Part shown: one piece after another, positions 11,681 through 48,989 of the stretch | Layout: each line of letters opens with the position of its first letter | Numbering within the stretch: the first letter of the stretch is position 1 | Assembly (NCBI GenBank): GCA_947259495.1 | Contig: CAMYLV010000038.1 | Span: 1,789-50,782, forward strand | Length of the DNA: 48,994 bases | From: an uncultured Desulfobacterales bacterium | GTDB lineage: Bacteria; Desulfobacterota; Desulfobacteria; Desulfobacterales; JAHEIW01 | Direction: 5' to 3' | Made by a program: the position numbers and the translations under genes | The notes under the pieces: model-generated | Told to the model about the DNA's origin: nothing | Seen by the model: the letters and a program-made list of their open reading frames with translations, nothing else | Databases searched by the model: none

Positions 11681-12991
11681 TTAGCGCTTTGTCTTGCTTT
11701 GCGCATCGATAAACAGACAATCTTTCAAGGCAGCTTGACCACGCACCACATCTTCAGCAAAGGTGCGGCAGTCCGGGGCGCCGCATGCTGTACAATCGGT
11801 CCCTTTAATCAATTGCCTAACTTTCTCAATTTCTTGCATGGCATCAATGGACAGCGCTTCTTTGCGGGCGCCGAACAGGTTGGTCAGTTTAGATGGATCT
11901 TTTTCAGTTTGAAACTCCCCTCGCTCATACATGCGTAAAATATTTTCGCGGTGCAAGCGTCTGCCGAGACCAAATCGTTTGATCATTTTTTGAACGGCGC
12001 CTTTGGCCAGATATTTATCAATAGCGTTTAACACACCACCCAGACAGCCTTCGCGACAGGTTCGAAATTCGATATACTCAATATTCTGAAACAGGCCCAT
12101 TTCGATTTTTTCAAGATAGTGAATGGTTTCCTCCATGCCCGAAACCGCCAGGGAGCGGTCGATATCCATGTCGGCGATTTCGCCGCCGGACATCCCCCAC
12201 ATGGATGCGTTGCCGGTGGCACAGGTTTCGTATTCAAAGCGTGTTTGATAGAACGGAATGCCGTCGGCCGCTTTAATCTGCTCCACATGTTTGATCAGTT
12301 GCGGATAGATATCGTTAATACCCAGGGCAACTTCAGCGGGTGCGGGCTCCTTACGAGCAGGCAAGCATGCTGGATCTTTTTTGGTCGGGCAGGGGTTGAT
12401 GTAGTATAAAACAACCGCCTGGCCCTTATCCTGATATTCGGGAATAAGGCGCTGCTTGACTTCGCGGGCCATCAGCGCCACCGGCCTTAAAACCGGCAAT
12501 ACGTTGGGCAACAGGCTGGGAAATTTAAACGCAATCAGCCGCACCACTATCGGACAAATCGGTGAGATCAGGGGCCAGGGGGCTTTGTTGGACGTTCGGT
12601 TACGACTGATGAATTCTTCAGTGGCACACTGGAACATTTCAAGAAAATAAGACATGTCGATGGTGTGTTGAAACCCCATCTGGCGAAGGCCCAACAGCAC
12701 ATCTTTGGGCATGACACCGGGAAACTGCGCGTAGAGAACCGGTGATACCAAAGCAATGGCAACGTGATCCTTGCCGAGCGTCTCGAGGCTTTCGGTGGCC
12801 GCGCTGACTGCTCGCTCGCGGCAGATGCGAATGCACTCGCCGCAACCAATGCATTGCTCAACAATCCGGGCGGCTTTCTTTTTTTTGATCCGGATGGCTT
12901 TGGTGGGGCAAACCCTCAGACACGACCCATGGCCGGCACAGAGGTCTTTATCAAAGCGGACGAAGCAGGTTGAGGTCAGTTTTTTGCTCAA
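11681..12991 (-). CDS. HydS-like [FeFe]-hydrogenase-related Fe-S protein
   Basis: 436 residues. Residues 14-60 hold two ferredoxin motifs; the first reads CAGHGSCLRVC, so the second ligand position is His21 instead of Cys, while the second motif (C47, C50, C53, C57) is complete. The core resembles the [FeFe]-hydrogenase large domain, with cysteines at the H-cluster positions: SPICP (C146), NPCPTKK (C201) and TCREGC (C312, C316). The usual TSC, MPC and GGGQP sequences are not kept. A C-terminal Fes-type 4Fe-4S domain follows (C400, C403, C408, C425). This is the architecture of putative sensory HydS-type proteins, not of a catalytic hydrogenase. It overlaps the GHKL gene upstream by 4 bp. Confidence 0.8.
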   Translation of the reverse strand: MSKKLTSTCFVRFDKDLCAGHGSCLRVCPTKAIRIKKKKAARIVEQCIGCGECIRICRERAVSAATESLETLGKDHVAIALVSPVLYAQFPGVMPKDVLLGLRQMGFQHTIDMSYFLEMFQCATEEFISRNRTSNKAPWPLISPICPIVVRLIAFKFPSLLPNVLPVLRPVALMAREVKQRLIPEYQDKGQAVVLYYINPCPTKKDPACLPARKEPAPAEVALGINDIYPQLIKHVEQIKAADGIPFYQTRFEYETCATGNASMWGMSGGEIADMDIDRSLAVSGMEETIHYLEKIEMGLFQNIEYIEFRTCREGCLGGVLNAIDKYLAKGAVQKMIKRFGLGRRLHRENILRMYERGEFQTEKDPSKLTNLFGARKEALSIDAMQEIEKVRQLIKGTDCTACGAPDCRTFAEDVVRGQAALKDCLFIDAQSKTKR

Positions 12992-13489: not shown

Positions 13490-13843
13490 TTATCGTTTTC
13501 CGTCAAGCCCGGTAAGGTTGCAAGCATGCAGTCTGCCGCAGGAGACAAACATGGAATACGGGCTCGATATCAGGGGTATGCCCTGGTCTTTGGCCATATC
13601 GATCACTTCCTGGGGCGGTTTCTTTTTTCTGACGAAGACCACTGCCCCGACGCCGGCCACTATGGCGGTGCGGATGACCTGCACGGTTGTCAAACCGGTT
13701 AATAAGACACAATCTTCAGAAACTGCGGCCAGCACGTCACTCATCAGGTCGCTGGCGCCGCATCTCGTAATGCTTTTATCCAGTTTATCCTCTCCGATTA
13801 AAAGCGTCGCATCCAGGGCATCAACAATTTCTGATAGCTTCAT
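13490..13843 (-). CDS. DRTGG domain protein (2 of 3)
   Basis: 117 residues. Starts MKLSEIVDALDATLL and contains GASDLMSDVLAAVSEDCVLL, TGLTTVQVIRTA and GAVVFVRKKKPP. It is a clear paralogue of the plus-strand protein at 20759, sharing LTGLTT-QV-RTA, AAVVFVR and a closing GLDG. It is the first gene of the sensor block (DRTGG, GHKL, HydS-like, DRTGG, PHP, GHKL, 2Fe-2S), separated from ade by about 160 bp. Ligand unknown. Confidence 0.85.
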   Translation of the reverse strand: MKLSEIVDALDATLLIGEDKLDKSITRCGASDLMSDVLAAVSEDCVLLTGLTTVQVIRTAIVAGVGAVVFVRKKKPPQEVIDMAKDQGIPLISSPYSMFVSCGRLHACNLTGLDGKR

Positions 13844-20246: not shown

Positions 20247-20741
20247 ATGGTACCTGACATCCGTCCCGAACATTCCGATATTTCAGATGAAATGTGGCCT
20301 AAAATCGATGATATCATTACTGCCAACTGCGATATTCCAGGTTCGATTATCGGTGTTTTGCGCGAATGCCAGGACGTTGTCGGCTGGCTGCCGGTCGAGT
20401 TGATTGATTATATTAGCGACGGTCTCAATCTGCCTCGCAGTGAAGTTTTCGGGGTCGCCTCTTTTTATTCACTGTTTTCCATGACCCCCAAAGGCAGGCA
20501 CCAGATAAAGGCATGCATGGGCACTGCCTGTTATGTGAAAGGCATTAAAGAAGTGATCAGCCGTATCGGCAACGAATACCAGCTTAAAGAAGGTTGCACC
20601 ACTGAAGATCGGCGTTTTACGTTGGACGCCGTCCGATGTTTAGGGGCATGCGGATTGGCACCTGTAGTGGTGGTGGATCAGGATACCTACGGTGATGTCA
20701 AAGCCGATAAGGTCATCGAAGTGCTGGAAAAATACGAGTAG
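20247..20741 (+). CDS. nuoE: NuoE/HndA-like [2Fe-2S] subunit
   Basis: 164 residues, the usual NuoE length. The thioredoxin-like [2Fe-2S] domain has C90 and C95 (ACMGTACYVKG) and C131 and C135 (RCLGACGLAP). The N-terminal helical domain carries DVVGWLPVELIDYIS and FGVASFYSLFSMTP. It carries electrons to or from the NuoF flavin. ATG is 8 bp after GAGGGAG. First gene of a plus-strand operon with DRTGG, nuoF and rnfB; no membrane Nuo subunits follow, so this is a soluble-type module and not complex I. Confidence 0.92.
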   Translation: MVPDIRPEHSDISDEMWPKIDDIITANCDIPGSIIGVLRECQDVVGWLPVELIDYISDGLNLPRSEVFGVASFYSLFSMTPKGRHQIKACMGTACYVKGIKEVISRIGNEYQLKEGCTTEDRRFTLDAVRCLGACGLAPVVVVDQDTYGDVKADKVIEVLEKYE

Positions 20742-20758
20742 CATGCGGTTTGGAGCTG

Positions 20759-21112
20759 ATGAAAATATCTGAAATTCAAAATATCTTAGATGCCACTGTT
20801 TTAACGGGAGAAGACCAGCTCGATCGCAACGTGGTGGGTGCCGGCGGTGCTGATTTAATGGCGGATGTGTTGTCGGCGGTTGCCAAAGATGCGGTGTTGC
20901 TCACCGGTCTGACCACCGAACAGGTTTTGCGAACCGCCAAAGTTGCCGATGTGGCGGCGGTCGTCTTTGTCAGAGGTAAACAACCCGATACGCCCGTCAT
21001 CGAACTGGCAAAATTCTATCAACTGCCCGCGATGTTAACAAAATACTCTCTGTTTGTTGCCAGCGGCCGATTGTATGTCAACGGACTGCGGGGACTGGAC
21101 GGTTCGTGGTAA
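20759..21112 (+). CDS. DRTGG domain protein (3 of 3)
   Basis: 117 residues from ATG 20759; TTG 20750 is possible, but GGAG sits just before the ATG. Paralogue of the minus-strand protein at 13490: both have a LDAT start, DLMxDVL, VLLTGLTT, RTA and AAVVFVR. Its position between nuoE and nuoF, and the occurrence of relatives beside the HydS-like gene, tie the two divergent blocks together functionally. It may sense a nucleotide or redox-related ligand for the NuoEF complex (inference). Confidence 0.85.
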   Translation: MKISEIQNILDATVLTGEDQLDRNVVGAGGADLMADVLSAVAKDAVLLTGLTTEQVLRTAKVADVAAVVFVRGKQPDTPVIELAKFYQLPAMLTKYSLFVASGRLYVNGLRGLDGSW

Positions 21113-21242
21113 TCGGTTCATGCGCTGGCGGAATTATATTATTTTATTTTCAAAGCTTTGGGGTAAATATTATTCATCAACCGTCAATTTTCAATTCGGC
21201 TGAAATCCTTAAATCGTCAATCATCGCATGCGGGAGTCCAGC

Positions 21243-23030
21243 ATGAATAAAGTTAGAACTCAGTTGATGTTGTGCGGCGGAACCGGCTGTCACGCATATA
21301 AGAGTGATGTATTTCAGGAAGAGCTTCAAAAGGAGTTAGAGCGCCAGGGACTTGTGGATGAAATTAAGATTATTGAGACCGGCTGCAACGGTTTTTGTGC
21401 GGTCGGGCCGGTTATGCTGGTTCAGCCCGAAGGAATTTTTTACCAGAAGCTGAAGGTTAAAGACATTCCGCACCTCGTCGAAGAACATTTTCTCAAAGGC
21501 CGCACCGTTAAAAAACTGTTATACGTCGAACCGGCCTCCAAAGAAACTATTCCCAATATGCATGAAATCCCTTTCTTCGAGCATCAGGTGTTCTGGGCCA
21601 TGCGCAACAAAGGAGCCATCGATCCGGAGGTCATTGACGAATACATTGCGCGAGACGGTTATTTTGGCGCCGCCAAGGCATTGCAGGAGATGCAGCCGGA
21701 ACAAATCATCGCCGAGGTAAAGAAATCGGGTTTACGAGGACGCGGTGGGGCGGGCTTCCCCACCGGGCTGAAATGGGAGTTTGCCAGCAAAAGCCCCGGT
21801 GACGTTAAATATGTTTTGTGCAATGCAGACGAAGGTGACCCGGGGGCTTTCATGGATCGAAGCATACTGGAATCCGATCCGCATGCCATCCTGGAAGGCA
21901 TGCTGATTGCCGCCCGGGCGATCAATGCCCGACACGGATATATTTACGCGCGTACAGAATATCCATTGGCCATTCGGAGGCTGGGAATTGCCATCCAGCA
22001 GGCCCGGGAATACGGATTGCTGGGCATCGACATCCTGGGGTCCGGTTTCGACTTCAACATTGACATTTACCAGGGCGCCGGCGCGTTTGTTTGCGGCGAA
22101 GAGACCGCTCTGATGCGTTCGATTGAGGGCAAGCGCGGGATGCCGCGTCCACGTCCCCCGTTTCCGGCGCTGAAAGGCTTATGGGAAAAACCTACAATTT
22201 TAAATAATGTCGAAACCCTGTCCAACATCGCCCAGATTATCCGCAAAGGCGGGGATTGGTATGCCAGTGTCGGCACGGAAAGCAGCAAGGGGACCAAAGT
22301 GTTTGCGCTTTCAGGCGATGTCAACAACATCGGTTTGGTTGAGGTGCCGATGGGCACAACTCTGAGAACGATGATTTATGACATCGGCGGCGGGGTCCCC
22401 AACAAGAAAAAATTTAAAGCCGTGCAGCTCGGCGGACCCTCCGGTGGATGCGTACCCGAACAACACCTGGATATCCCGATCGACTATGAGGAAATTGCCA
22501 AGGTCGGTGCCATTATGGGTTCGGGCGGTGCCATTGTGATGGACGAAAACACCTGTATGGTCGATATGGCGCGCTTTTTTATGGATTTTGTGCAGGATGA
22601 ATCCTGCGGGAAATGCACACCGTGTCGCGAAGGCACGCGGCGTCTGTTGCAGCTCCTGGAAAAAATCTGTGAAGGCCGGGGGGTACCTGAAGATATTGAG
22701 ACCATGCAGGAACTCTCCGGTACGATCAAAGAGGCGGCGTTGTGCGGTTTGGGTCAGACGGGGCCCAATCCGGTTCTTTCGACCCTGCGCTATTTTAAGG
22801 ATGAATACGAGGCCCACGTCCTTGAAAAACGATGTCCGGCCAAACGCTGTGTTGCGCTGTTGAAATTTGAGGTGCAACCGGAAATGTGCACCAAGTGCGG
22901 TATGTGCTTTCGGGCATGCCCGGTAGAGGCTATCACCTGGAAAAAGAAAGAAGTTGCGGTTATCGATAAGGAAAAATGCATCAAATGCATGACGTGTTTT
23001 GAGAAGTGTAAGTTCAATGCAATTGATTAG
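21243..23030 (+). CDS. nuoF: NuoF/HndC-like flavoprotein with added ferredoxin domains
   Basis: 595 residues from ATG 21243 (GGGAG 7 bp upstream; ATG 21228 overlaps that site). Domains in order: thioredoxin-like [2Fe-2S] (C11, C16, C48, C52), FMN/NADH-binding core (GRGGAGFPTGLKWE, NADEGDPGAFMDRS), SLBB domain, the N3-type 4Fe-4S motif (ESCGKCTPCREG) and a C-terminal two-cluster ferredoxin (CTKCGMCFRACP, CIKCMTCFEKCK). This matches the NADH-oxidising subunit of electron-bifurcating hydrogenases and relatives (HndC/HydB). The stop codon TAG is also the first three bases of a 98-bp repeat. Confidence 0.93.
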   Translation: MNKVRTQLMLCGGTGCHAYKSDVFQEELQKELERQGLVDEIKIIETGCNGFCAVGPVMLVQPEGIFYQKLKVKDIPHLVEEHFLKGRTVKKLLYVEPASKETIPNMHEIPFFEHQVFWAMRNKGAIDPEVIDEYIARDGYFGAAKALQEMQPEQIIAEVKKSGLRGRGGAGFPTGLKWEFASKSPGDVKYVLCNADEGDPGAFMDRSILESDPHAILEGMLIAARAINARHGYIYARTEYPLAIRRLGIAIQQAREYGLLGIDILGSGFDFNIDIYQGAGAFVCGEETALMRSIEGKRGMPRPRPPFPALKGLWEKPTILNNVETLSNIAQIIRKGGDWYASVGTESSKGTKVFALSGDVNNIGLVEVPMGTTLRTMIYDIGGGVPNKKKFKAVQLGGPSGGCVPEQHLDIPIDYEEIAKVGAIMGSGGAIVMDENTCMVDMARFFMDFVQDESCGKCTPCREGTRRLLQLLEKICEGRGVPEDIETMQELSGTIKEAALCGLGQTGPNPVLSTLRYFKDEYEAHVLEKRCPAKRCVALLKFEVQPEMCTKCGMCFRACPVEAITWKKKEVAVIDKEKCIKCMTCFEKCKFNAID

Positions 23031-23125
23031 AAGCCATTTCAAAACCCCGTTTCAGCCGATTTGCGGCTTTTGTAAAGCGCTAAGCTTGTTGCGCTAATCC
23101 GCCTGAGGCGGAGAAAACTCGGGCT
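23028..23125 (+). repeat. 98-bp structured repeat, copy 1
   Basis: Nearly identical (one visible difference, A/G at the fourth base) to 48892-48989. Begins TAGAAGCCATTTCAAAACC and ends GAAAACTCGGGCT. It contains internal hairpins (CCGATTTGCGG, AGCGCT...GCGCTA, TCCGCCTGAGGCGGA). Here it lies exactly between the end of nuoF and the start of rnfB. The high identity suggests recent mobility or gene conversion. Confidence 0.85.
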
Positions 23126-23136
23126 CAATCATCTTA

Positions 23137-25209
23137 ATGGGCGGCATGGGATTGGCCATTAGCATAATTCTGGCCGTCGCATCCAAGGTTTTCTACGTGT
23201 ATGTTGACCCCAAAATACTATCGATTGAAGAAGAGTTGCCCGGCGCCAATTGAGGCGGCTGCGGGCTGCCGGGTTGCAGCGCGAATGCAGAGGCCATCGT
23301 TGCCGGTCTTGCGGCACCAAATTCATGCGTGGCCGCCGGTCCGGAAGTGGCTGAAGCCGTTGCCAGCATTATGGGCGTTAAGGTCGAAGCTGTCGAACCG
23401 GATATCGCCCTGCCGGGCTGTTATTTCGGGGTTCAGGATGCGGATACGAAATATGTCTATAACGGTCTGGATGACTGCCGCGCAGTGGCACTGCTGGGCG
23501 GAGGCCAGAAAGTCTGCACCATCGGTTGCCTGGGCCTGGGGACCTGCGCCAGGGCCTGTCCGTTCGATGCCATCCGGATGGGACCAAAAGGTTTGCCAGT
23601 CGTGGTTGAGCAAAAGTGCACAGGCTGCGGAACCTGTGAACGGGTGTGCCCCAAGCACATTATAAACCTCTCATCGATTACCCGAAGGATCATCCGGGAA
23701 TACACCACCGATGAATGCACGACGCCATGCCAGCGGGGGTGCCCGGCCGGCATTAACATTCGGGAATACATTCGTCAAATTTCGCTGGGAAACAATCATC
23801 GCGCCGTTCAGGTCATCAAGGAGCGCAATCCCTTTCCAGCTGTGATCGGCCGGATCTGTCCGCGACCATGTGAACTTGAGTGCCGGCGAAATTATATTGA
23901 CGCGCCGGTGGCCATCAATTTTCTAAAGCGTTACGCTGCAGATTATGAAAAAGAAAGCGGCAAACGTATCCTGCCTTATAAGGCACCGGATACCGGCCGC
24001 AAAATTGCGGTTGTTGGCGGCGGTGTGCAGGGTTTGTCGGTTGCGTTTTTTACGGCGCGCCTGGGACACGATGCAACCGTCTTTGAAGCCACCGGAAAGC
24101 TGGGCGGACTGCTCAGGAGCGCGATTTCAAAAGATAGGCTGCCGGAGCAGATTCTGGATTGGGATATTGAAGGCATCATTGAAATGGGCGTTAAAGTCGA
24201 AACCCGGAAGGCTCTCGGCCGGGATTTCTCCATAAAATCAATGATTCAGGAAGGATTTGATGCAGTTTTTTTAGCTTCCGGTGGTTGGGACAGCCGTCTG
24301 GCACGCGGTGCAACAGATGATATGGAATCACCGATTCCCGGAACCTATATGCTGGTGGATCTCATGCGATTTGGAGCCCAGAAGCAAGAAGAGCTATCGA
24401 TTGCGTCTGATGTCGTCATTGTCGGCGGAGGCAAACTGGCGCTTGATGCCGCCAAAATTTCCAAAGAACGGGGCGCTACGACCATCACCGTTTTATTCCG
24501 CGAAAGCTGGGAAAACAGTCCTGTTTCGGATGCGGAACTGGAAAAACGAGGTATGACCGATCTCAACATTATTTACAATGCGGCCGTTAACCGCCTGATA
24601 GGAGAGGCTGATCGGCTCGAACAGGTGGAATTTATTGCAGCCGACACCTCCGAAATGACGATCATACCGGCTCAGACACTTGTGTTTGCCTCTGGCCGAT
24701 TTCCCGAACTGGTTTTTATGCGGCCAAAACCCGAAGGTGCTGAAGTCGAAGACGTGGAATTACCACCGGATTTGTCTCTGCGCTGGGAAGGTACGCAACC
24801 TTACAAACAACCGGTCTTCAAAGATGAGGTCGGTCTGTTCGCTGAGGGTGATGTGCTGGCGGATTATAGCGCAGCCATTAAAGCGATCGGTGCGGGCCGC
24901 CGGGCGGCCGCATCCATTCATCAGATTATGCATGGACTATCCCCGAGCCTGACTGAGCATGTGATCACTCCGCAATCTGCTCTACAAAATGTGCATCATG
25001 TCGAAAAGGTGCAAGCGAACCAGCGCCAGATCATGCCCATTTGTAGCGGCAAAGAGCTGGCGGTCTGCGGTGAGATCGAAAGAGGCTTTTCAGCAGATAT
25101 GGCGCAGGAAGAAGCGGATCGATGTCTTCAATGCGGCTTGATCTGCTATGTGCACACGGAAAGCGCAGGGACTGATGAAACCTCAGAATCGACAGAAGTT
25201 TCTGGATAA
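23137..25209 (+). CDS. rnfB: Selenocysteine RnfB fused to a GltD-like flavoprotein
   Basis: 690 residues when the in-frame TGA at 23251 is read as Sec39; without readthrough only a piece from GTG 23329 would be called. Residues 1-17 form the RnfB membrane anchor (GLAISIILAVASKVF). The Fes 4Fe-4S domain has U39, C42, C47 and C64 (LPGANU, GGCGLPGC), where RnfB normally has Cys at all four. Two ferredoxin motifs follow (CTIGCLGLGTC from 128, CTGCGTCERVCP from 162). From 198 comes a GltD/NfnB-like half: CQRGCPAGIN, FAD site VVGGGVQGLS near 292, pyridine-nucleotide site IVGGGKLALDA near 426. No rnfA, C, D, E or G is present. The start is uncertain: no clear ribosome binding site, and the 98-bp repeat ends 11 bp upstream. 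ATG 23146 is an alternative. Confidence 0.85.
23251..23280 (+). promoter_or_regulatory. Sec UGA codon and putative SECIS hairpin in rnfB
   Basis: UGA at 23251-23253. The arm GCTGCGG (23258-23264) pairs with TTGCAGC (23274-23280), allowing G-U pairs, around a 9-base loop GCTGCCGGG. The short distance after UGA fits bacterial SECIS elements read by SelB. Confidence 0.6.
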
Positions 25210-25274: not shown

Positions 25275-25706
25275 GTGGCTACTGAACAAGGCGTCGTTCT
25301 TCGGACCGACTCTGAAGCTGCCTGGGTCAAAACCACCCGGAGCAGCGCCTGTCAAGGCTGCACGGCAAGGAAATCGTGTCATACCCGGAGTGGCAGTCAG
25401 GACATGGAAGTCAAGGCGCTGAACATCGCCGGCGCCAGAGAAGGGGACCGGATTGTTTTAAGTTTTGAAACCCGCTCATTGTTAAAAGCCACATTTTTAA
25501 TCTATGTGTTCCCCATTATCTTTCTGATCGCCGGCGCTGCAATCGGGCAGATTTTGGCCCCGCTTATGGCATTTAACCCCTCGACGATATCTGTCCTCCT
25601 GGGATTTGCCTTCTTTTTCACCGCGCTGTTTATCATCAAAGCCCGGGCCAATAAAATGGCAAAAAAGAATGCTTACCAGCCCAAAATTACAAAAATACTA
25701 ACTTAA
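25275..25706 (+). CDS. RseC/MucC-like (SoxR-reducing system) membrane protein
   Basis: 143 residues from GTG 25275 (GAGG 6 bp upstream). N-terminal Cys-rich part with CQGCTARKSCH and an earlier ExGVV strand, followed by two hydrophobic segments (ATFLIYVFPIIFLIAGAAIG and VLLGFAFFFTALFII) and a basic cytoplasmic tail. This is the RseC/MucC layout, a family often found beside rnf genes and implicated in SoxR reduction or sigma-E control. Its location right after the RnfB fusion fits that association. Last gene of the operon. Confidence 0.85.
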   Translation: MATEQGVVLRTDSEAAWVKTTRSSACQGCTARKSCHTRSGSQDMEVKALNIAGAREGDRIVLSFETRSLLKATFLIYVFPIIFLIAGAAIGQILAPLMAFNPSTISVLLGFAFFFTALFIIKARANKMAKKNAYQPKITKILT

Positions 25707-38499: not shown

Positions 38500-41400
38500 A
38501 TGACGGATAAAGTCCAAGGATCTGTAATGGTTGTCGGCGGTGGAATCGCCGGGATGCAGGCCTCGCTGGATCTGGCCAATTCCGGCTACCTGGTTCATCT
38601 GGTTGAAAAGTCATCTGCAATCGGCGGGTTGATGTCACAGCTCGACAAGACGTTTCCCACCAACGACTGTGCGATGTGAATCATTTCACCTAAACTGGTC
38701 GAGGTCGGCCGGCATCTCAACATCGAGCTTTTAACCGACAGTGAACTTTTAGAACTTGAAGGCGAACCCGGGAATTTTAAGGCCCGGATACGTCAAAATC
38801 CACGCTACATCGATCTTGATAAGTGTACCAGCTGTGGTGAGTGCACCACGGTCTGTCCGGTAGATCTTCCGAGCGAATACGACGAAGGTCTGTCAACCAA
38901 AAAAGCCACTTTCAAACGATACGCCCAGGCGATTCCCGGCGCCTATGCCATTCAGAAGGCCGATAAGGCCCCCTGTCGCCTGGCCTGTCCGGGTGGACTC
39001 AATGTGCAGGGCTACGTTCAGATGGTCAAGGAGGGCAAGTATAAAGAAGCCCTGGAGATCATCATGGAAGATCTTCCCTTACCCGGTGTGCTGGGTCGCA
39101 TATGCCCCCACGGGTGCGAGGATGCCTGCCGTCGTTGTGAGGTGGAATCGCCGGTGGCCATTCGGGATTTGAAGCGTCTGGCAGCCGACAAATTTGATCC
39201 GCGGCAGGTGGAAATTAAATGTGCGCCGCCGAAAAAGGAAAAAGTGGCCATAATCGGCTCTGGCCCTGCCGGGCTTTCCTGTGCCTATCACCTGGCGAAA
39301 AAAGGGGTTTTATCCTCTATATTTGAGTCCCTGCCGGAACCGGGCGGGATGCTCAGGGTCGGTATCCCGGCCCACCGTCTGCCCCGCGAAATTTTAGACC
39401 AGGAAATCGAAGTCATTACCAACCTGGGAGTGGATATTGAGACCAACACGGCGCTGGGCGGCGACGTCACCATCGATGGTTTGCTGCAAGACGGGTATAA
39501 AGCCGTCTATCTGGCGATCGGCGCCCATAAAGGGATTGAACTGGGTATCCCCGGGGAAAAGACCAATGGTGTGCGTCAGGGTGTCGAATTTCTCAGAGAG
39601 GTGAATCTGACCGGCAAGACCGATACCGGCAAAAAGGTAGCGATCATCGGTGGCGGTAACGTTGCCATTGATGTCGCTCGTTCAGCCGTCCGGCTGGGCG
39701 CCGAAACGGTCAACATCGTTTATCGGCGCACCCGCAATGAAATGCCGGCCTGGGCAGAAGAAATCCAGGCCGCCGAAGATGAAGGCGTTCAGATTTCCTA
39801 TCTGGCCGCACCTCAGGAAGTTTTAACCCGGGATGGCAAGGTGGTGGGTTTGCGCTGCATCCGTATGGAGCTCAGTGAACCCGACTCCTCCGGGCGCAAG
39901 CGTCCCATTCCGGTTCCCGGAAGCGAATATGAGATTGAAATCGACCAGCTGATTCCGGCCATCGGGCAGCGACCCGATTTATCCGCCCTGGAAGATATCA
40001 GCGGGCTGACCTATACCCGCTGGGGGACGACTGAAGTCAACTCGGTCACCTATGCCACCGAGCGCGATGGTGTGTTTGCCGGCGGCGACCTGCAGACGGG
40101 GCCCTGGGTGGCCATTGGTGCGATTGGTGCCGGCAAAGAGGCAGCCGAATCTATTCTGCGTTACATCGAAGGGCACGATATGGCTGAAGGCCGCGAGCCG
40201 GTGGTCAACGAGAATCCGGTTTATCGGCCCATTCCGGAAGACGAACCTGCAGTGGAGCGGGCCAGGATGCCCGAACTGGCCGTTAATAAGCGCCAGGGCA
40301 ATTTTGATGAAGTTGAACTGGGTTACGCCGAAGATGAAGGCCGGGCTGAAGCGGTCCGCTGCTTGAACTGCGGGTATTGCTGTGAGTGTTATCAATGCGT
40401 GGAGGCCTGTCTGGCCAATGCTGTTGACCACAGCCAGCAAGCCGAAGTTAAAGAAATTGAAGTCGGCTCCGTCATTCTGACGGCCGGCTGTGAACCCTAT
40501 GACCCCACCCATCTGGAAAACGTCTACCATTACAAAACCAGTCCTAATGTATTGACCAGCCTGGAATTCGAACGCATCCTGTCTGCCTCGGGGCCGACCA
40601 TGGGACATCTGCAGCGGCCCTCGGACGGCAAAGATCCCAAAAAGATTGCCTGGTTGCAATGCGTCGGCTCAAGAGACAGCAACCAATGCGGCAATAGCTA
40701 CTGTTCGTCAGTTTGCTGCATGTATGCCATCAAGGATTCCATGATTGCCAAAGAACATGCGGAAGAAGAGCTGGATTGTGTTGTGTTCAATATGGATATC
40801 CGGACCTTTGGCAAAGACTATGAGAAATATTACAATCGCGCTAAAGACGCCGGCATCCGTTTTATTAAATCCCGGATACATTCGATCGATGAAATCGGTG
40901 ATACCGGAAATTTAAGCGTTCGTTACATGGATGATGCCGGTCAATTGCAGATCGAGGAATTTGACATGGTCGTGCTGTCGGTCGGTCTGCAGGTGCCGGA
41001 AGCGACCGTCCAGCTGGCCGAGCGCCTGGGGGTCGAACTAGATGACTCGCGCTTTGCCGTTACCCATCCGTTTGCACCGGTCGAAACTTCCCGGCCCGGT
41101 GTGTATGCCTGCGGGGTGTTTCAGGAACCCAAGGACATTCCCAGCTCGGTTATTGAAGCCAGTGCGGCGGCATGCACCGCCGGTGCAAGTCTAAACACAG
41201 CGCGCAACACATTGACCCGCAGTGTCGAAATTCCGGAAGAAATTGATGTCACTGAGCAGGAAGCCCGGGTGGGGGTGTTCGTCTGCAATTGCGGGGTGAA
41301 TATCTCCAGCGTGGTGGACGTTAAGGGGGTGACCGAGTATGCCAAAACGCTGCCCAACGTGGTCCACGCCCAGGAAAATTTGTTTACCTGTTCCCAGGAT

Positions 41401-42930
41401 TCCCAGGATCAGATGAAAGAGATAATCAAGGAGCACAAGCTCAACCGGGTGGTGGTGGCGGCCTGCAGCCCCAAAACCCATGAGCCCATTTTCCAGGATA
41501 CCATGGAGTCCTGCGGGCTAAACAAATATCTGTTTGAAATGGCCAATATTCGCAACCAGGATTCCTGGGTGCATTCCGAAACCGCCGAAACAGCCTCAGA
41601 AAAAGCCAATGATCTGGTGCGCATGTCGGTGGCCCGGGCAGGCACGCTGCATCCCCTGCAGGAAAAGAAAATCCCGGTCGTTCAAAAAGGTCTGGTCATC
41701 GGCGGCGGCGTGGCCGGCATGAATGCCGCTCTGGGCCTGGCCGACCAGGGTTATGAGGTGGTATTGATTGAAAAGGAGGCCGAGCTGGGCGGATTGGCCA
41801 ATCGGTTGACGGCAACCATAGAAGGCGCCGATATCGGTGGCTACCTGAAAGATTTGACTTCAAAGGTAAAATCCCATGAAAAGGTCCAGGTGATCACCAA
41901 TGCGCTGGTTGTCGGTTTTTCGGGTTTTAAAGGCAACTTTACCACCGAGGTTCTGGTGGGGCCGGACATGGTGCAGCGTAAAATAGATCACGGCGCGATT
42001 ATTCTGGCCACCGGGGCCCATGAGTTTCGTCCCCAGGAATACCTTTACGGGGATGACCCGCGCGTCTTGACCCAGCTCGAGTTAGCCGAGCGGATGCAAA
42101 AAGGCGAACTGGAAGAGCCGCAACAGGTGGTCATGATCCAGTGCATCGGATCCCGGGATGAACAGAACCCCAACTGCTCCCGGGTATGTTGTCAGACGGC
42201 CGTTAAAAATGCACTGCACATCAAAGAAAAATATCCGGATGCCCAGATTTATGTCCTGTACCGCGATATTCGAACCTACGGCCTTCTGGAAGACTATTAC
42301 ACCGAAGCCCGTCGTCAGGGGGTATTCTTTTTCCGGTTTGATCCCGAAGATCCGCCGGTGGCCGCGGCAGTTAAAGACGGCATCGAGGTTACCTTTACCG
42401 ACCACGTGCTCAATCGAAAGCTGAAGGCGAGTACTGATTTGCTGGTACTCAGTGCCGGTATGGAAGCCGAAGATACCGAGGAGCTGTCGTCGATTGTGAA
42501 ACTGGCCCGCACCCCGGAAGGCTATTTCATGGAAGCGCATGTTAAATTGCGGCCGGTGGATATGGCCACCGAAGGGATTTTTGTGTGCGGTACGGCTCAC
42601 AGCCCCAAACTGATATCGGAAAGCATTGCCCAGGCATATGCGGCCGCTTCGCGGGCGGTTACATTTCTGTCCCAGACCCATTTAACGCTGTCGGCGGTTA
42701 CCGCGCAGGTTGAAGCCGACAAGTGCGCCTCCTGTTTGATCTGTGTGCGCTCCTGTCCGTATGATGTGCCCAAGATTAATGCGGATGGTGTCAGTGAAAT
42801 CGATGAGGCGCTCTGCCACGGCTGCGGCATCTGCACGGCGGAATGCCCGGCCAAGGCGATCCAACTGAACTGGTACGAAGATGATCAGATCATCTGCAAG
42901 GTGGATGCGCTTTTAGAGGGTGTCCTTTAG
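38500..42930 (+). CDS. hdrA: Selenocysteine HdrA-GltD-HdrA fusion flavoprotein
   Basis: 1476 residues reading the TGA at 38677 as Sec60. ATG 38500 follows GTAAGGAG. Order: HdrA FAD site (VVGGGIAGMQAS); Sec60 in NDCAMUIISPKLVEVGRH where most HdrAs have Cys; ferredoxin motif CTSCGECTTVCP near 109; GltD-like insertion (ACPGGLNVQGY, FAD IIGSGPAGLSC near 250, NAD(P) IIGGGNVAIDVA near 386); Cys-rich CLNCGYCCECYQC near 621; HdrA cluster region near 720 (GSRDSNQCGN...CC); a second HdrA module with FAD site VIGGGVAGMNAALG near 1065 and its own CC motif; two C-terminal 4Fe-4S motifs (near 1408 and 1441). HdrA-type flavins carry out electron bifurcation. There is no hdrB or hdrC; mvhD, metV and metF follow. 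Confidence 0.93.
38677..38712 (+). promoter_or_regulatory. Sec UGA codon and putative SECIS hairpin in hdrA
   Basis: UGA at 38677-38679. CTGGTC (38695-38700) pairs with GGCCGG (38707-38712), with two G-U pairs, around loop GAGGTC, 15 nt after the UGA. Position and G in the loop fit a bacterial SECIS element. Confidence 0.65.
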
Positions 42931-43083: not shown

Positions 43084-43515
43084 ATGGCTGAGAATTTTGA
43101 TCCGATTATCATTGCCTTTTGCTGCAATTTCTGAGGGTACACAGCGGCGGACCTGGCAGGTTCGATGCGATTGCAATATCCGACAAATGTAAAAATTGTT
43201 CGGGTTCCCTGCACCGGAAAAGTCGATGTGATTCATATCATGCGGGCCTTTGAAAAAGGTGCCGACGGCGTTGCCGTCATCGGGTGCCTGGAGGGCGAGT
43301 GCCATTTCAACGCCGGCAACCTGATGGCACGCAGACGGGTGGAGCAGGCTCAGAAAGTATTGGAGACGGTCGGCGTCGGTGGCGAACGGGCCCAAATGTA
43401 TAATCTGTCATCCAGTGAGGGCCCCTTGTTTGCACAGTATGCGACCGCAATGACCGAAAAGATAAAAGCATTAGGCCCCAACCCGATCCGGACTGCGAAA
43501 AACAAGGCGGCCTGA
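43084..43515 (+). CDS. mvhD: Selenocysteine MvhD (hydrogenase iron-sulfur subunit)
   Basis: 143 residues with the TGA at 43132 read as Sec17. ATG 43084 follows CTGGAGGAAAA. The N-terminus FDPIIIAFCCNFUGYTAADL matches MvhD/VhuD (FCCNWCxYxxADL), the Sec replacing the third Cys; downstream are the conserved CTGKVDVIHIMRAFEKGADG, GCLEGECHFNAGN and RMEQAQ-like helix. MvhD carries a [2Fe-2S] cluster and links HdrA to its electron donor. VhuD of Methanococcus is a known selenoprotein, which supports readthrough. Conventional calling gives only a fragment from 43165. No hydrogenase mvhAG genes are present, so its partner is probably HdrA with MetVF. Confidence 0.93.
43132..43164 (+). promoter_or_regulatory. 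Sec UGA codon and putative SECIS hairpin in mvhD
   Basis: UGA at 43132-43134. CGGACC (43148-43153) pairs with GGTTCG (43159-43164), with one G-U pair, around loop TGGCA, 13 nt after UGA: a compact bacterial SECIS-like hairpin. Confidence 0.65.
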
Positions 43516-43641: not shown

Positions 43642-44310
43642 ATGATTGTTGCGGATAAGAAACCAATTGAGGAAATCATCGAATACCTGAAAGATCACAA
43701 GAACATCCTGGTTCTGGGCTGCAACGAATGCGTGACCGTTTGCGAGGCCGGCGGCAAAAAAGAGGTGGGCGTTCTGGCTTCGGCCTTAAGGATGTATGCC
43801 AGCAAAGAGGGCAAAGAGGTCAAGATCGATGAAATGACCCTCGAACGACAGTGTGATCGTGAATATCTGGATGAACTACGGGATTCGATCGATCAGTATG
43901 ATGCTGTGGTTTCCCTTGCCTGTGGAGTCGGGGTTCAATTTACCGCCGAGCAATACCACGACAAGCCGGTGTACCCGGGCGTGAACACCTGTTTTATGGG
44001 TGCGACCGAAGAACGCGGTTTGTGGACCGAACGCTGCCAGGGCTGCGGACAGTGTATTCTGGCAACAACCGGGGGCATCTGCCCGGTGGCGCGCTGTGCT
44101 AAACGGCTATTCAACGGTCCCTGTGGGGGTTCGACCACCGGTCGATGTGAGATTAACACCGAGGTCGATTGCGCCTGGCAATTGATCGTTGATCGGCTCA
44201 AAGCCCTGGATAGACTTGACGAATACGAAGAGCTGTGCCCCCTGAAGGACTGGTCAACAGACAGGGCCGGGGGGCCCAGAAAAGTCGTAAGGGAGGATGT
44301 GCAGCAATGA
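43642..44310 (+). CDS. metV: MetV, zinc/Fe-S subunit of methylenetetrahydrofolate reductase
   Basis: 222 residues, MTHFR C-terminal (MetV) family. Cys-rich: LGCNECVTVCEAGGKKEVG near residue 25, SLACGVGVQFTAE, NTCFMGATE, then ERCQGCGQCILATTGGICPV with ARCAKRLFNGPCGGS. In Moorella and other acetogens MetV partners MetF, and the pair associates with HdrA/MvhD-type subunits. GAGAGG lies 9 bp before ATG. Its stop overlaps the metF start (ATGA). Confidence 0.93.
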   Translation: MIVADKKPIEEIIEYLKDHKNILVLGCNECVTVCEAGGKKEVGVLASALRMYASKEGKEVKIDEMTLERQCDREYLDELRDSIDQYDAVVSLACGVGVQFTAEQYHDKPVYPGVNTCFMGATEERGLWTERCQGCGQCILATTGGICPVARCAKRLFNGPCGGSTTGRCEINTEVDCAWQLIVDRLKALDRLDEYEELCPLKDWSTDRAGGPRKVVREDVQQ

Positions 44311-48891: not shown

Positions 48892-48989
48892 TAGGAGCCA
48901 TTTCAAAACCCCGTTTCAGCCGATTTGCGGCTTTTGTAAAGCGCTAAGCTTGTTGCGCTAATCCGCCTGAGGCGGAGAAAACTCGGGCT
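48892..48989 (+). repeat. 98-bp structured repeat, copy 2
   Basis: Matches 23028-23125 with one visible difference (TAGG against TAGA at the start). Here it lies in intergenic DNA at the window edge. Sequence diverges immediately after the shared CTCGGGCT, defining the right boundary. Confidence 0.85.

Follow-up and report, generated by a model that had tools for sequence, protein, structure and literature searches.

The locus described here raises the question of whether an RnfB-type gene interrupted by a TGA codon, in an uncultured member of the Desulfobacterales, encodes a selenoprotein with selenium at an iron-sulfur cluster and, if so, in what kind of electron transfer such a protein would take part. 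The gene lies on the forward strand of the window, by which we mean the whole 48,994-nucleotide stretch of DNA that was analysed. When the TGA is read as selenocysteine (Sec, U), a single frame of 690 residues extends from an ATG at 23137 to position 25209 (+), and its sole internal stop is the TGA at 23251–23253 (+), the codon for residue 39. A FeS domain (PF04060) is matched at residues 34–65 (23236–23331, +; 41.6 bits against a cut-off of 23 with Cys written for Sec), and its ligand set reads U39-x2-C42-x4-C47-x16-C64, with U at the first position and Cys at the other three. These four residues align with cysteines of the solved RnfB chains 7zc6_B, 9eri_B and 8ahx_B, and C42, C47 and C64 are invariant in the 27 aligned rows. 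Further along, a ferredoxin-like 4Fe-4S dicluster region occupies residues 130–177 (23524–23667, +; domain search), followed at residues 192–671 (23710–25149, +) by a GltD/NfnB-like flavoprotein region, in which Fer4_20 and Pyr_redox_2 are matched at residues 194–275 and 373–537, respectively (Cys again written for Sec). The first-pass annotation had described a TGA at 23251 that interrupts an RnfB frame, its position on the first Cys of a C-x2-C-x4-C-x16-C motif and a C-terminal GltD-like flavoprotein, all of which are borne out.

The protein scores above the cut-off of the rnfB family TIGR01944 (85.1 versus 68.7 bits, Cys written for Sec) and below that of NF005503 (177.7 versus 252 bits), which places it outside the latter family. 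Compared with canonical RnfB, its FdI/FeS domain and ferredoxin region are alignable (residues 1–185 with 7zc6_B) and, by analogy with the solved structures, a single membrane helix would precede the FeS domain at the N-terminus, whereas the Sec in place of the first Cys, the lack of adjoining RnfACDEG and the C-terminal flavoprotein set it apart. For the flavoprotein part, the top structure matches are 9bov_A, 8oh5_C and 9n5u_A, with Foldseek TM-scores not exceeding 0.44. In an AlphaFold model computed from 27 rows, the FeS domain has a pLDDT below 50, and cluster geometry was accordingly not drawn from the model. The NADPH site of GltD/NfnB proteins is characterized by the motifs GGGNTAxD and YRRTRxEMPA. 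The Sec protein carries GGGKLALD and FRESWENSP at these places, which do not conform to the motifs, and retains the FAD motif; by contrast, its Cys-containing paralogue in the same genome, L104, displays intact GGGNTAID and YRRTRGEMPA. From the degeneration of the NADPH motif in the one protein and its preservation in the other, we infer that NADPH is no longer a substrate of the flavoprotein half and that NADH would enter through NuoF, encoded nearby.

The identity of codon 39 was read across relatives of the gene. In the best 80 of 105 confirmed homologous loci from the genome collection, this codon is TGC in 59, TGT in 14 and TGA in seven, so that every one of the 80 carries either Cys or TGA; plain Cys is found in 73 of them. 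Homologues with neither residue, which the first-pass annotation had named as a refutation, were thus not encountered. Within the family to which the window belongs, five of the six genomes searched contain a TGA copy; the sixth, 79% complete, shows only a Cys paralogue. Across the order (389 genomes), TGA copies occur in at least 11 genomes among the matches listed, five from family f1 and six from genus g9 of family f8. On the strength of this recurrence in other genomes, which here takes the place of a resequenced codon, a sequencing error was rejected as the source of the TGA. Compared with the relative L001, the window copy has accumulated ten synonymous and no non-synonymous changes before the TGA, and after it the uncorrected non-synonymous to synonymous ratio is 0.16; as judged from this comparison, selection acts on both sides of the codon.

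In a tree of 118 rows, obtained with a quick method, 12 Sec rows and a single Cys row, from genome G012, fall on one side of a branch with an SH-aLRT value of 100; given the missing root information and a G012 row that is 40% filled, the tree is compatible both with loss of Sec in G012 and with its branching before Sec arose. The G012 gene is a natural Cys twin, with TGC at codon 39, 86% identity over the first 180 residues and intact stem pairing downstream, and its existence demonstrates that Sec is not indispensable. This copy (L190/L135), located inside the Sec clade, retains all five stem pairs, and likely represents either a fossil SECIS or a pre-Sec state. Relatives with Cys might be thought to have lost the Sec machinery, but this does not apply to G012, where selA scores over the cut-off. 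A different departure is seen in G002, which harbours a second nuoE-nuoF-rnfB(TGA) cluster (L192), where the match to RnfB stops at about residue 127, with an aldehyde dehydrogenase gene behind it.

The start region of the window copy is anomalous. A partial copy of a dispersed repeat (23031–23124, +; 3' edge approximate) stands where the ribosome site and start codon would normally be found and, by its position, has displaced the start region of the gene; the ATG at 23137 is the first that remains in frame after the last upstream stop. Among the other large TGA copies, 10 have a readable 5' end, and in nine of these an ATG precedes the equivalent position by seven codons. As the usual start codon and ribosome site have been lost, expression of the window copy is uncertain, and it may be poorly expressed. 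At E 1e-3 or better, a search of the genome with this repeat yields 43 matches (the query counted among them), several of which reach 95–100% identity, and a further copy is present in the window at 48896–48989. TAG forms the left edge in five of the eight copies read, and seven places show a weaker inverted match at a distance of 34–82 bases, a configuration that may be MITE-like.

The genome encodes the machinery for Sec insertion, with selA, selB, tRNA-Sec (selC) and selD each scoring over its curated cut-off; the absence of these genes, another refutation named in the first-pass annotation, therefore does not apply. Its selD itself carries one TGA, as does each of three of its seven FlpD matches. 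Among 25 other genomes checked, selA is matched in 24 and exceeds the cut-off in 23, including all 10 others with a large TGA copy and genome G724 discussed below. We consider recoding of the TGA near certain and its decoding as Sec very probable; it is the clade, rather than the window copy alone, that makes the case.

The first-pass annotation had also reported a hairpin behind the TGA. The candidate bSECIS element spans 23265–23280 (+), with a stem formed by 23265–23269 and 23276–23280 (GCUGC/GCAGC, bases 12–16 paired with 23–27 after the TGA) and the apical loop CGGGTT at 23270–23275 (CGGGUU in RNA). Pairing at all five positions is possible in 12 of the 13 distinct TGA contexts versus five of the 114 Cys contexts (G012 among the five), although the sequences within each set are related and the counts are not independent. 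In the 12 pairing TGA contexts, the loop is CGGGUU (11) or CGGGGU (1); the thirteenth context is that of the small RnfB L189. Bacterial SECIS elements have a G within the first two loop positions, as do these loops.

The strongest signal comes from silent sites. The test drew on 11 of the 13 distinct Sec rows, in which the sequence continues for 560 residues or more past the Sec codon (L111 and L189 dropped; two of the 11 cut by the locus end). Their third positions differ by 53% on average, yet the mean synonymous entropy of codons +4 to +9, exactly the stretch across which the hairpin can form, is 0.073 bits, compared with a gene mean of 1.14, and is the lowest among 300 six-codon windows. 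In the 11 nearest of 105 Cys rows (57% diverged), the same codons have 1.28 bits and rank 151 of 203, and 200 random sets of 11 drawn from 47 Cys rows at 70% identity or more never fell below 0.92 bits. Judged by its silent sites, the region is constrained as RNA or DNA.

Thermodynamic folding gives a mixed picture. Relative to shuffled sequences, the z-scores of folding energy are 0.21 for the window element, −1.17 for L193 and 0.05 for L196, and folding energy was rejected as proof of the hairpin on the strength of these three large copies; for L189, the z-score is −2.31. When 42 bases are folded, the stem is preferred in eight of the 12 distinct large TGA copies, whereas in L138, L140, L141 and L111 the 3' arm pairs instead with an upstream GCUGC. 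The preferred fold also depends on length, with the stem found in one of the 12 copies at 33 bases after the TGA and in eight at 45. Over the 40 bases that follow the codon, folding energy averages −16.6 kcal/mol for Sec (n = 13) versus −14.1 kcal/mol for Cys (n = 114), a contrast weakened by composition. Silent-site conservation as a whole does not decide for either of the two pairings; in the Sec rows, however, the freeze includes codons +4 and +5 but not +1 and +2, which, together with L189, favours the inner stem. An Rfam scan of the window yielded no matches at gathering scores. The proposed hairpin thus draws its support from silent-site conservation rather than from folding, which is ambiguous (z of 0.21 for the window element, and another fold preferred in four of 12 copies).

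A second lineage has TGA at the same place. Genome G724, from another family of the same phylum, encodes a small RnfB (L189) with TGA at the same codon, the count from the G724 search being, like the order-wide one, a lower bound from the matches listed. L189 sits in a complete operon, rnfC-D-G-E-A-B, followed by apbE, and scores 444.4 bits for NF005503 (cut-off 252), which makes it a member of that family. The hairpin behind its TGA differs in stem sequence, with a stem of 8 bp, and carries the loop CGGGU. We take its Sec to be of presumably independent origin because the large RnfB of the same genome (L164) has Cys.

Proteins of this smaller kind have been tabulated before. A 'Fe-S cluster domain-containing protein' of family NF005503, with UxxC, is listed among the selenoproteins predicted with high confidence in the consulted part of PMC13188914, with citation of the 2008 GOS paper, and a table in PMC9312934 includes PRK07118 (UxxC, ABC78902.1) as a predicted selenoprotein. 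The NCBI name of the NF005503 family is RnfB, and a term search of the main text of the GOS paper retrieved no entry of the NF005503/PRK07118 type. These proteins (WP_258165141.1, ABC78902.1) are, likewise, RnfB-family members with Sec in UxxC, whereas the window protein scores below the family cut-off, is a 690-residue GltD fusion and is encoded beside nuoEF without rnfACDEG; that the Sec position is the same in the published accessions is suggested by the member L189, with its TGA at the identical position. Accordingly, the earlier suggestion that this is an unusual place for selenium may hold biochemically, but the place is not unrecorded. Term searches of the accessible text of PMC5029168, PMC12013277, PMC1794560 and PMC2702500 found no RnfB selenoprotein, although an RnfC selenoprotein family is listed in PMC5029168. 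Large RnfB proteins of about 700 amino acids with an added NAD-type domain are described from D. toluolica and D. multivorans in the relevant passages of PMC5109826, where the five Sec genes given for D. multivorans do not include an RnfB. In the open-licence literature, we found no report of a Sec form of the large RnfB-GltD protein. What was known, then, is a predicted Sec at UxxC in the smaller RnfB and an RnfB of about 700 residues; what appears to be new is the Sec form in the large RnfB-GltD architecture and in this gene setting.

That setting consists of genes on the same strand for a NuoE-like [2Fe-2S] subunit (20247–20741, +; PF01257), a DRTGG-domain protein (20750–21112, +; PF07085), a NuoF-like NADH/FMN subunit (21228–23030, +; profile matches) with an N-terminal [2Fe-2S] thioredoxin-like and a C-terminal ferredoxin domain and, downstream, an RseC/MucC-family protein (25275–25706, +; PF04246). 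The NuoE- and NuoF-like proteins are the likely partners of the RnfB-GltD protein. The window encodes one more DRTGG-like protein, at 13499–13843 (−), which shares 57% identity over 115 residues with the neighbour of nuoF. Both nuoE and nuoF lie upstream in eight of the nine distinct large-type TGA loci that were read (the window, L001, L002, L003, L006, L011, L072, L077 and L196). A count by side was confined to loci flanked by 3.5 kb or more upstream and by 7 kb or more downstream (five TGA, 37 Cys). In these, nuoE and nuoF are both upstream in four of five TGA versus 11 of 37 Cys loci, and RseC is downstream in four of five and 26 of 37, respectively. Genes for Rnf subunits, sought up to 6 kb upstream and 9 kb downstream, are absent from all five TGA loci and present in eight of the 37 Cys loci; in 17 of the 37 Cys loci, rnf genes and an upstream nuoF are both lacking. 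Hence, nuoEF is the setting of the Sec clade and not of every Cys relative. The first-pass annotation was also right that no RnfACDEG genes surround the gene in the window: nine Rnf queries, drawn from two operons, gave no match there at 1e-3 except for an RnfC query on nuoF. An rnfCDGEA operon of the Tol2 type is present elsewhere in the genome, accompanied by a Cys-type large RnfB of its own, which is 38% identical to the Sec protein and falls in a well-separated part of the tree.

Taken together, these data point to the following scheme, which we regard as probable in its entirety: a protein with a Sec-ligated FdI cluster that works with NuoEF. SelB and tRNA-Sec would insert Sec at the UGA at 23251, directed by a hairpin whose apical loop would begin 17 bases after it, and Sec would replace the first [4Fe-4S]-binding cysteine of the FdI/FeS domain, beside the single membrane helix. 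Together with the NuoE- and NuoF-like proteins, the RnfB-GltD protein would most likely form a membrane-anchored NADH/ferredoxin oxidoreductase, in which NADH would react at the NuoF FMN and electrons would then run along the iron-sulfur chain, with the mobile FdI domain passing them to or from a membrane partner. The FdI of Rnf is described in PMC9588780 as a mobile domain with a 'highly likely' [4Fe-4S] cluster, too mobile to be seen in the structure; the domain is proposed there to move back and forth from RnfB to the iron of RnfA/E. RnfA and RnfE, the known partner of FdI, are absent from the window, which speaks against the scheme; the partner could be a membrane acceptor other than RnfA/E, RseC or the distant Rnf complex. 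A Sec ligand would be expected to shift the potential or the reactivity of the shuttle cluster. By homology, we hold it likely that Sec serves as a ligand of the [4Fe-4S] cluster. Apart from a few proteins, what Sec binds, Fe-S clusters included, is deduced from Cys homologues according to PMC13188914. Cooperation of the RnfB-GltD protein with NuoEF is, in our estimation, somewhat less secure but still favoured.

Other readings of the locus have to be weighed against this scheme. If the TGA were a true stop or the gene had decayed, there would be either a GTG-started fragment of 626 residues or no protein at all; the loss of the start codon and ribosome site to a repeat and the second copy in G002, with its match ending near residue 127, would fit such decay, but the TGA recurs at one codon in two families, the frame being open on either side of it in their genomes, selection is evident before and after it and silently frozen codons lie behind it, making this highly improbable. 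Alternatively, Sec might be inserted without serving as a permanent ligand, forming instead a selenenylsulfide/thiol redox pair, U39-G-G-C42, with the cluster absent or ligated by three cysteines. The UGGC sequence does have the UxxC form of many redox selenoproteins in Table 1 of PMC13188914, and the cluster in this protein is a predicted one. Nevertheless, FeS spacing is kept at all four positions, the other three cysteines never vary in the aligned rows and homologues overwhelmingly have plain Cys at residue 39, in a domain for which PF04060 gives a putative Fe-S cluster, so that we view a redox pair as unlikely.

The remaining two readings accept Sec and differ in what the protein serves. 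It could belong to a reducing system of the Rsx-RseC kind, with RseC as the partner, rather than to an energy-converting oxidoreductase, as the RseC/MucC gene downstream in the window and in most loci of either type would suggest; among Cys loci, RseC is indeed a more constant neighbour than nuoEF. Rsx, however, requires membrane subunits of the RnfADE type, which are absent from the window, and NuoE and NuoF beside the TGA genes point to NADH chemistry; a system of this kind thus appears doubtful, if conceivable. Docking of the Sec protein on the separately encoded Rnf complex, where it would replace the Cys-type large RnfB, for example depending on selenium supply, would make use of the rnfCDGEA operon and recall the Vhc/Vhu switch mentioned in the accessible text of PMC2702500, another Cys/Sec paralogue pair. 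The low identity of the two paralogues, their separation in the tree and the location of the TGA genes next to nuoEF argue against such an exchange, for which we see little likelihood.

The closest counterparts of a Sec-ligated RnfB-GltD protein working with NuoEF differ from it in several respects. The large RnfB of the Desulfobacula toluolica Tol2 type shares the RnfB part and the added NAD-type domain, but belongs to an rnf operon, and the description seen in PMC5109826 reports no Sec RnfB there; its counterpart in the genome studied here is the Cys paralogue L104, with the NADPH motif kept. The StnABC and NfnABC transhydrogenases, like the putative complex, combine HydBC-like (NuoE/NuoF-type) subunits with a GltD/NfnB-like one, as described for StnABC in the consulted part of PMC10482914. 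StnC, however, has a NuoG domain, where the window protein has a membrane helix and RnfB domains along with the degenerate NADPH motif, and no NuoG domain is found among its Pfam matches at 1e-3, which sets it outside the Stn type.

Additional features of related kinds are present in the window. A second candidate selenoprotein gene, of the MvhD/VhuD type, lies at 43084–43515 (+), with an in-frame TGA (43132) in the motif CCNFU; it comes after a gene for a 1308-residue GltD-HdrA fusion (39004–42930) and is followed, past one further ORF, by a MetF-like gene at 44235, whose match is under the cut-off. Another FeS (PF04060) domain, uninterrupted by a stop, is encoded at 11711–11803 (−) in an open frame of 441 residues, the 436-aa ORF of which has no NCBIfam match at 1e-25.

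Automatic gene calling is expected to cut the RnfB-GltD protein at the TGA, thereby losing both the membrane anchor and the Sec. The small FdI domain, the Cys twin in G012 and the second lineage together would offer a clean system for studying the effect of selenium on a [4Fe-4S] cluster. As to why selenium should be at this place at all, it may be that NuoEF and the RnfB-GltD protein work through a selenolate-ligated shuttle [4Fe-4S] cluster and that the replacement was selected at least twice, in the Rnf complex of L189 and in the orphan system described here, as an adaptive tuning of the cluster rather than by accident, a proposition on which we are evenly divided.
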